Positions 30,189 to 31,582 of a stretch of DNA of 64,000 bases are shown one piece after another. How positions within the stretch are numbered: the first letter of the stretch is position 1; every line of letters begins with the position of its first letter. This stretch comes from Halothiobacillus diazotrophicus (GTDB lineage Bacteria > Pseudomonadota > Gammaproteobacteria > Halothiobacillales > Halothiobacillaceae). The notes beneath the pieces are model-generated. The model did no database searches. It was not told where the DNA came from and saw nothing but the letters and a program-made list of their open reading frames with translations. The DNA lies in NCBI RefSeq assembly GCF_001663815.1, contig NZ_CP016027.1, positions 992,001 through 1,056,000 of the forward strand, written 5' to 3'. Made by a program: the position numbers and the translations under genes.

Positions 30189-30548
30189 TTACAGACCCAG
30201 CGCGGCCTTGGCTTGCGCCGCGATCGCGGCAAACGCCGGCTTGTCGTGGACAGCCAGATCAGCCAGGACCTTGCGGTCGATTTCGATGTTGGCCTTGTGG
30301 ATGCCTTCGATCAGACGGCTGTAGGACAGATCGTTGTTGCGCGCTTCGGCGTTGATCCGGGTGATCCACAGTGCGCGGAAGACCCGCTTCTTCACACGAC
30401 GGTCGCGGTAGGCATATTGCCCCGCCTTGGTGACCGCCTGATGCGCGACGCGGTAGGTACGCGACCGGGCACCGTAATAGCCTTTGGCTTTATCGAGAAC
30501 TTTTTTGTGTTTGGCGTGTGCAGTGACGCCGCGTTTTACTCTGGCCAT
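30189..30548 (-). CDS. rplT: 50S ribosomal protein L20
   Basis: Early-assembling 50S protein (119 aa) binding 23S rRNA; in E. coli it also represses its own operon. The sequence is canonical: [49 protein letters not shown] and [20 protein letters not shown]. It lies 13 bases after rpmI. Downstream is the terminator-like hairpin before pheS. Confidence 0.98.
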
Positions 30549-30561
30549 GTCTCAATACTCC

Positions 30562-30756
30562 TTAGGCGTAGGGCAGCATGCGATGAATCGAAGGAACATC
30601 GCGCTCGTGAACGTAGGAAGGAGAGCCCAGTTGACGCTTACGCTTGGAGGACTTCTTGGTCAGAATGTGACGCATGTGCGACTGCTTGCGCTTGACGCCA
30701 CCTGCGGTGATTTTGAACCGCTTGGCTGCGCCGCGATTCGATTTGATCTTCGGCAT
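30562..30756 (-). CDS. rpmI: 50S ribosomal protein L35
   Basis: Small basic 50S protein (64 aa): [20 protein letters not shown], then [29 protein letters not shown] lies just before the ATG at 30756. It is preceded by a 271-base structured leader after infC, so it is probably the translational target of L20 autoregulation, with rplT coupled behind it. Confidence 0.97.
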
Positions 30757-31027
30757 GATCGACTCCAGTTTTACCGTTGTTGTTTGATACCCAGCACGTC
30801 GGAGTTAGTTAACGTGCAAGAGGCTAATTGCCCTGTTCAGATGCTGGCCTTGCCGAACATCCGGCAACCGCGAAAGCTCAATCGAGAGCCTCACGCGGCG
30901 CGCAAACGATGGGCGCCGCCCGGAACGGATGGTCAAACCATCCACCCAAAGCGGCGCAAAATAATAATCCAGCAACTCAGGAAAAGCAAGGCGTGTCTAT
31001 CGGGGACACGGCCATGCAGATCGGCGT
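30757..31027 (-). promoter_or_regulatory. structured rpmI-rplT leader with alternative pairings
   Basis: 271 bases between the infC stop and rpmI. In transcript order: hairpin CGTGTC/GACACG (31010-30992); element A GCGCCGC (30957-30951); hairpin GGATGG/CCATCC (30943-30927); element B GCGGCGC (30919-30913); element C GCGCCGC (30901-30895); hairpin TTGCCG/CGGCAA (30867-30850); hairpin GCACGT/ACGTGC (30817-30794). B can pair with A or with C but not both, a switch-like arrangement. Position fits an L20-binding autoregulatory leader as known in E. coli and Firmicutes. The pairings are seen; the function is inferred. Confidence 0.6.
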
Positions 31028-31582
31028 TCAGTTGTTCTTCTTCGGCGCCATCACCATGGTGACCTGACGGCCTTCCATCTTGGGCCGCTGTTCGACCACC
31101 GCCAGCTCGGCCAGATCACGCTCGATGCGATCGAGCAGCTCGCTGGCGATATCCTTGTGTGCCATTTCGCGACCGCGAAAACGCAGGGTGATCTTCGCCT
31201 TGTCGCCATCCTCGAGGAATCGGACGATGTTGCGCATCTTGACCTGATAATCGTGATCTTCCGTGCCGGGCCGGAACTTGATTTCCTTGACCTCAATCTG
31301 CTTCTGCTTCTTGCGAGCCTCGGCCATCTTCTTGCTTTGCTGATACTTGAACTTGCCATAGTCCATGATCTTGCAGACGGGCGGACTGGCATTCGGCGCC
31401 ACTTCGACCAGATCCAGAGCTACTTCGGCGGCACGCGTCAAGGCGTCGCGGGTACGCACGATACCGAGCTGTTCGCCGTTTTCATCGATCAGTCGAACTT
31501 CCCGGGCAGTGATTTCACCATTGATGCGCGCCTCATCGGAGTCACGCGCGGCGGGGGCATTTTGTCCACGGAGCTGAGCTAT
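31028..31582 (-). CDS. infC: translation initiation factor IF-3, apparent AUA start
   Basis: IF-3 keeps 30S subunits free and rejects poor start codons. The N-domain begins [24 protein letters not shown]; the linker and C-domain carry [14 protein letters not shown] and [41 protein letters not shown]. No in-frame ATG precedes RINGE. The ATA at 31582 has AGAGGA exactly 7 bases upstream and gives a 184-aa protein, with about as many residues before RINGE as E. coli IF-3. E. coli infC starts at AUU, part of IF-3 autoregulation. The only conventional in-frame alternative, GTG at 31654, has no Shine-Dalgarno and lies above the predicted transcription start. Confidence 0.95.

Follow-up and report, generated by a model that had tools for sequence, protein, structure and literature searches.

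The E. coli-type L20 operator contains two L20 sites that mimic H40/H41 of 23S rRNA. This operator of rpmI-rplT is said to have been worked out in Lesage 1990, Chiaruttini 1996/1997, Guillier 2005 and Haentjens-Sitri 2008, and Chiaruttini et al. 1996 reportedly placed the distant arm of its pseudoknot within infC, roughly 300 nt upstream. L20 of E. coli represses rpmI-rplT via a long-range pseudoknot near the start of rpmI (PMC10931766, PMC6962249). The L20 leader of Firmicutes (RF00558, the infC attenuator of B. subtilis) precedes infC and acts by ending transcription. A candidate L20 leader proposed for Deltaproteobacteria features two G-C pairs along with an AA dimer (PMC7247131).

At the Halothiobacillus locus analyzed here, an RNA element (30823-30762, minus strand) immediately precedes rpmI-rplT and overlaps with the Shine-Dalgarno (SD) sequence of rpmI, which is the position of the E. 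coli-type operator. Like the E. coli operator, it has a predicted pseudoknot that involves the rpmI SD region upstream of the same genes, and the infC arm of E. coli, ACTCCGCA, resembles the local arm ACTCCGAC of Halothiobacillus. The E. coli pseudoknot, however, is long-range, whereas no part of the Halothiobacillus element is farther than 70 nt from the start codon; unlike in E. coli, its first stem (S1) is a local hairpin of irregular shape, and rpmI is, again unlike in E. coli, served by a predicted promoter of its own downstream of infC. The element would share with the Firmicutes leader the control by L20 of infC-rpmI-rplT genes via mRNA structure, but it is located downstream of infC, and the hairpin scan of the window found no terminator between the pseudoknot and rpmI. 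No Rfam covariance model matched the window at gathering scores, and the weak matches near the leader were unrelated, none being of an L20 family, so that the comparison with Rfam L20 leader models suggested in the first-pass annotation of this DNA yielded no counterpart. The deltaproteobacterial candidate is also a proposed L20 leader but is set apart by lineage and scaffold. We met no description of the compact local form in the literature searched; Choonee 2007 and Fu 2013, outside that scope, may describe it.

Organization of the locus

The minus strand of the window (the whole 64,000-nt stretch of the Halothiobacillus chromosome that was analyzed) carries the gene order thrS-infC-rpmI-rplT-pheS-pheT. 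The gap of 271 nt between infC and rpmI is the stretch flagged in the first-pass annotation (30757-31027), and the features in and around it are given in Table 1. Judged by sequence, infC in the window probably starts at an AUA codon (31582-31580). The sequence GAGGATAAGAA(G/C)ATAGCTCA at the infC start is kept in 9 of 9 Halothiobacillus, and infC of three loci (L005, L006, and L008) is without ATG, GTG or TTG between the upstream stop and the AUA codon.

Table 1. Features of the infC-rpmI-rplT region, in coordinates of the window.
Feature	Position	Strand	Remark
rplT (L20)	30189-30548	minus	PF00453, E = 3e-46; SD overlaps rpmI stop codon
rpmI (L35)	30562-30756	minus	PF01632, E = 1.2e-23; start codon at 30756
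S2, 3′ side, GGAGU = rpmI SD (SD 30766-30763)	30762-30766	minus	GGAG invariant, 27/27
AAC in loop 3 adjoining S2	30768-30770	minus	invariant columns A58 A59 C60 of alignments A1 and A2
S1 lower, 3′ side, GGG	30790-30792	minus	partner of CCU 30823-30821
S1 upper, 3′ side, ACGUGC	30794-30799	minus	covarying helix
S2, 5′ side in S1 loop, ACUCC (anti-SD)	30801-30805	minus	CUCC invariant, complementary to rpmI SD GGAG
S1 upper, 5′ side, GCACGU	30812-30817	minus	covarying helix
S1 lower, 5′ side, CCU	30821-30823	minus	pairs with GGG 30792-30790; set off from upper part by an irregular internal loop
Arm C, GCGCCGC	30895-30901	minus	present; within same unconserved leader segment as arm B
Arm B, GCGGCGC	30913-30919	minus	present; within unconserved leader segment
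Stem-loop near predicted mRNA 5′ end, GGAUGG/CCAUCC	30927-30950	minus	folding of leaders from predicted +1
Arm A, GCGCCGC	30951-30957	minus	present; 5 of 7 bases = predicted promoter discriminator upstream of predicted start
GC-rich discriminator TTTGCGCC (30960-30953) and predicted start G30952 (9th base after -10)	30952-30960	minus	spacing same in relatives
Predicted rpmI-rplT promoter: -35 TTGCTT 30989-30984, 17-bp spacer, -10 TATTAT 30966-30961	30961-30989	minus	conserved pattern in relatives
Weak terminator-like hairpin 3′ of infC, CGTGTC..GACACG, CCTTGCTTTT	30992-31010	minus	hairpin scan; relatives' terminators here clearer
infC (IF3)	31028-31582	minus	PF00707 and PF05198; AUA start codon 31582-31580, probable
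infC site of E. coli-type long-range arm (AAACTACGCA/AAACTCCGCA); window has AAGATGCGCA	31231-31240	minus	comparison

A predicted pseudoknot at the rpmI start

The conserved RNA just before rpmI has, by its sequence, the form of an H-type pseudoknot, consisting of the S1 hairpin and a second stem (S2), with a loop 1 of about 1-9 nt and a loop 3 of 20-odd nt. Among 27 sequences, both-side changes affect six pairs of S1 and 34 cells, the latter count being above that of all shuffles; the covariation score (0.286 vs 0.139) was reached by 0 of 500 shuffles, and it is above all 500 shuffles also with 19 sequences. When the S1 partner is slid by one column in the 27 sequences, pairing drops from 90% to at most 47%. 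A control that does not depend on the alignment gave the same picture, as the sequences' own S1 strands pair at 5 of 5 positions in 24 of 32 sequences and swapped strands do so in 14.9%. The upper part of S1 has both-side changes at four of the five counted pairs (0 of 500 shuffles reach its score), with the variants CACGU/ACGUG, UGCGU/ACGCA, GACGC/GCGUC, GGUGU/ACACC, and UCAGU/ACUGA. In the lower part (columns 6-8 with 40-42 of alignment A2), 81% of the cells are paired and two pairs show both-side changes, CC/GG being replaced by GGUCG/CGACC in L150.

Both strands of S2, CUCC in the S1 loop and GGAG at the SD, show no change in any of the 27 sequences, and 97% of the S2 cells are paired. There are no compensatory changes in S2 among the 27 sequences because its four core pairs never vary, as is to be expected when one strand is the SD. 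A loop strand that never varies is expected if it pairs with the SD, yet this is not covariation. The fifth pair of S2 is lost in family f155 (L089, L106, L144, and L146) and in L189/L190. The probability of S2 is near zero in the folding ensemble, which was computed with a nested program that cannot show pseudoknots. The covariation of S1 and the invariant, complementary strands of S2 are consistent with two crossing stems.

The likeness to the L20 site of 23S rRNA (H40/H41) differs among parts of the element. The AAC next to S2 is invariant and is possibly a counterpart of the AA dimer in other L20 sites, the motif CCGAAG is found in some members only, and the internal loop of S1 varies. Strong mimicry of H40/H41 by this internal loop looked likely in one family (CCGAAG, L106 and L146) but was discarded as a general property, since it fails across members. 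Loop 3 of one locus (L019) contains, compared with L020 and L023, an insertion of >100 nt bounded by inverted repeats (TATAGGGCACTTC..., ...TATAGGAGTGCCCTA), which looks like a small mobile element within the pseudoknot loop; both stems are kept.

The long-range arm in infC

The infC gene of E. coli (L111) carries ACTCCGCA some 310 nt upstream of rpmI, and TGCGAAGT is found in the rpmI start region, which fits a distant arm in infC. Many other gammaproteobacteria have ACTACGCA or GCTACGCA in infC together with TGCGGAGT at rpmI, with one mismatch in the middle. The infC part is present in 39 of the 45 genomes that have the rpmI part (TGCGGAGT or TGCGAAGT). It is absent from infC of Halothiobacillus, where AAGATGCGCA stands at its place. 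A local CUCCG and a matching SD were found in 24 genomes, only one of which (L022) also has GCTACGCA in infC; the loose test for a local CUCCG also picked up one E. coli-type genome (L091). The local element and the infC arm are thus nearly mutually exclusive. The GCTACGCA of L022, a member of Halothiobacillaceae with the local pseudoknot, may be what is left of an E. coli-type arm.

The leucine codon of the KLR motif in infC is CTA in 38 of the 45 genomes with the rpmI part vs 6 of the 38 without it. We further noticed that this CTA codon (AAA-CTA-CGC-A) is kept across many gammaproteobacteria (L028-L105 and similar loci, and E. coli L111). The sequence AAA-CTA-CGC-A complements TGCGGAGT at rpmI, ∼250-450 nt downstream, and looks like an RNA element within the coding sequence.

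Terminator-like hairpins are located directly 3′ of infC in three relatives (L015, L018, and L016). In L016, the infC-rpmI gap (∼724 nt) holds an entire rnk gene (domains Rnk_N and GreA_GreB), with a terminator after infC and a predicted rRNA-type promoter before rpmI, and yet the pseudoknot is retained. With rnk and a terminator between infC and rpmI, the putative operator would work, if at all, without infC sequence.

Distribution among Gammaproteobacteria

The covariance model R1 was made from Halothiobacillaceae and three loci, and R2, which widened the range found with R1, took in sequences from eight genomes outside Halothiobacillaceae; five further genomes outside Halothiobacillaceae that have the element (G215, G220, G181, G291, and G392) were not used in building R2. 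With R1 and R2, the element was found before rpmI in seven gammaproteobacterial families (f1, f52, f61, f147, f155, f156, and f158). In the class sample, R2 has matches at E ≤ 1e-6 in 14 of 369 genomes, and all 14 are directly before rpmI. Seven weaker matches were also obtained in the class, four of them at rpmI, one of which (G060, L191) was set aside because it is without the CUCC loop. The phylum sample (299 genomes) gave three further R2 matches (E 2e-6 to 6e-6), none at rpmI. Matches away from rpmI were set aside (L159, L186, and L187 in the class and L175-L177 in the phylum; E ∼2e-6 to 2e-5). In a tree of IF3, L35, and L20 (113 loci, with weak support at depth), the members fall into two groups among the deep branches and are separate from the genomes of the E. 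coli type.

A predicted rRNA-type promoter of rpmI-rplT

The leaders of relatives share TTG-N3, a 16-18 bp spacer, TA[TG]NNT, 2-3 bases, and GCGCC, followed mostly by G or A. Scanned as TTG-N3-N16..18-TA[TG]NNT-N2..3-GCGC[CT], this pattern occurs once per leader in 17 of 17 leaders (9/9 Halothiobacillus and 8/8 Guyparkeria-type); it has a single match on both strands of the 64-kb window, at the rpmI-rplT leader, and 17 matches in 151 kb of family loci, equal to the number of leaders. The -35 match is weak and a stricter consensus promoter scan of the stretch gave no promoter; we propose a promoter here because the pattern is conserved in the 17 leaders. Promoters of rRNA have GC-rich discriminators and start transcription 9 bp downstream of the -10 (PMC9304144, a review). 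The features of an rRNA-type sigma-70 promoter (a -10, a spacer of ∼17 bp, a -35, a GC-rich discriminator, and a predicted start at the ninth base) are all found in 17 of 17 leaders. As in E. coli rRNA promoters such as rrnB P1, the stretch of arm A (Table 1) has a GC-rich discriminator and a predicted start 9 bp after the -10; unlike them, the Halothiobacillus promoter would drive a ribosomal protein operon. Arm A is mainly the discriminator of this predicted promoter; since five of its seven bases lie upstream of the predicted start at G30952, most of it would be absent from the mRNA.

In 9 of 9 Halothiobacillus leaders, the predicted RNA opens with a stem-loop in which base 1 or 2 is already paired, the sequences being very different. 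In an alignment of three close species, a few pairs of this stem-loop change on both sides, though some cells are unpaired. The GGATGG/CCATCC hairpin pointed out in the first-pass annotation is this 5′ stem-loop of the predicted mRNA, for which a role in mRNA stability would be a guess.

Alternative explanations

The flagged leader had been read as an L20-responsive RNA of distinct architecture with mutually exclusive folds, in which GCGGCGC (arm B) alternates between two copies of GCGCCGC (arms A and C) and L20 shifts the balance. All of the letters are where they were said to be, including GGATGG/CCATCC (30943-30938/30932-30927, minus) and three further perfect 6-bp hairpins (CGTGTC/GACACG, 31010-31005/30997-30992; TTGCCG/CGGCAA, 30867-30862/30855-30850; GCACGT/ACGTGC, 30817-30812/30799-30794). 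Both helices are possible in the sequence, and a 301-nt region (31040-30740) folds more stably than its own shuffles (z = -3.0). The complementarity of the arms, however, is at chance level, as the 271-nt leader contains 4 pairs of complementary 7-mers where its shuffles have 2.2 on average, with 19% of shuffles reaching 4 (P = 0.19), and 16 complementary 6-mer pairs vs 9.5 in shuffles (6%). Nor is the folding ensemble bistable: in RNA with arm A included, the probability of A:B is 0.94-1.0 and that of B:C about 0, whereas in RNA that starts at the predicted G30952, where five of the seven arm A bases are gone, B:C prevails at about 0.7, so that the choice of helix is set by the 5′ end of the RNA. 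The 5′ leader with arms B and C has 30-52% identity within the genus vs 71-93% for the pseudoknot (last 74 nt before rpmI), and in Guyparkeria-type leaders no more than 36-51 nt lie between the predicted start and the pseudoknot. The A/B/C pairings are supported by no compensatory changes, on which the first-pass annotation had itself let its proposal depend, as arm A is mostly discriminator and the leader with B and C is unconserved within the genus. Given the folding ensemble, the promoter reading of arm A, and the non-conservation of the segment, we rejected the alternating folds, which we regard as very unlikely. The outline of an L20-responsive RNA of distinct architecture is probably right, the element being the pseudoknot at 30823-30762 and not A/B/C.

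An E. coli-type long-range operator might also be present in Halothiobacillus and the local hairpin be incidental, as the gene order is the same as in E. coli and an intact infC lies upstream. We consider this extremely unlikely, because infC reads AAGATGCGCA at the arm site, the SD region reads AACTGGAGT and not TGCGGAGT, and a predicted promoter and terminators separate infC from rpmI in the family. It could also be that the pseudoknot is real but independent of L20, tuning rpmI translation intrinsically or answering to L35, temperature, or a helicase. The resemblance to the 23S H40/H41 site, partial at best, would suit such a pseudoknot, but the element sits exactly at the site of L20 action in E. 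coli and stands in for the infC arm of the E. coli type, and we find independence from L20 rather improbable.

Discussion

We favor, with a probability of roughly 70%, the explanation that rpmI-rplT has its own rRNA-like promoter and a compact, SD-blocking pseudoknot that would answer to L20 independently of infC. The promoter (-35 at 30989, -10 at 30966, and +1 at about 30952, with an rRNA-like GC-rich discriminator) would transcribe rpmI-rplT into an mRNA starting with a stem-loop, whose leader would end just before rpmI in the compact H-type pseudoknot. In it, the loop ACUCC of S1 (CCU-GCACGU / ACGUGC-GGG) would pair as S2 with the rpmI SD GGAGU. Surplus L20 would most likely bind and stabilize the pseudoknot, which would then keep the 30S subunit off rpmI, and rplT would be repressed with rpmI through translational coupling, the SD of rplT overlapping the rpmI stop codon. 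We infer the formation of the pseudoknot, the binding of L20, and repression at translation from several lines of comparison: the E. coli precedent, in which L20 represses rpmI-rplT by a pseudoknot next to the rpmI start; the covariation of S1 together with the unchanged CUCC and GGAG; the lack of the infC arm in nearly every genome with the local element; the location of all 14 R2 matches at E ≤ 1e-6 directly before rpmI; and the pseudoknot kept in L016, where rnk and a terminator split infC from rpmI. The best reading of the pseudoknot is that of a compact variant of the L20 operator that would block rpmI translation, an E. coli-like operator with the distant infC arm exchanged for a local arm. 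With a local arm in its place, such an operator would be independent of infC, and the operon would be free to acquire its own promoter.

The element would offer a self-contained RNA of ∼70 nt for studying L20 recognition and competition with the 30S subunit, compared with an operator spread over ∼300 nt and coding sequence. As the two types are nearly mutually exclusive, the bases needed by L20 could be tested by comparison. It would also be an example of a ribosomal protein operator that has been rebuilt, with the same control retained and the arm in a neighboring gene swapped for a local one. In a broader sense, we think it fairly probable that the L20 operator of gammaproteobacteria has a second architecture, in which a compact pseudoknot carries its anti-SD arm locally, that this architecture replaces the infC arm in several deep-branching families, and that it let rpmI-rplT separate from the infC transcript and come under its own rRNA-type promoter.
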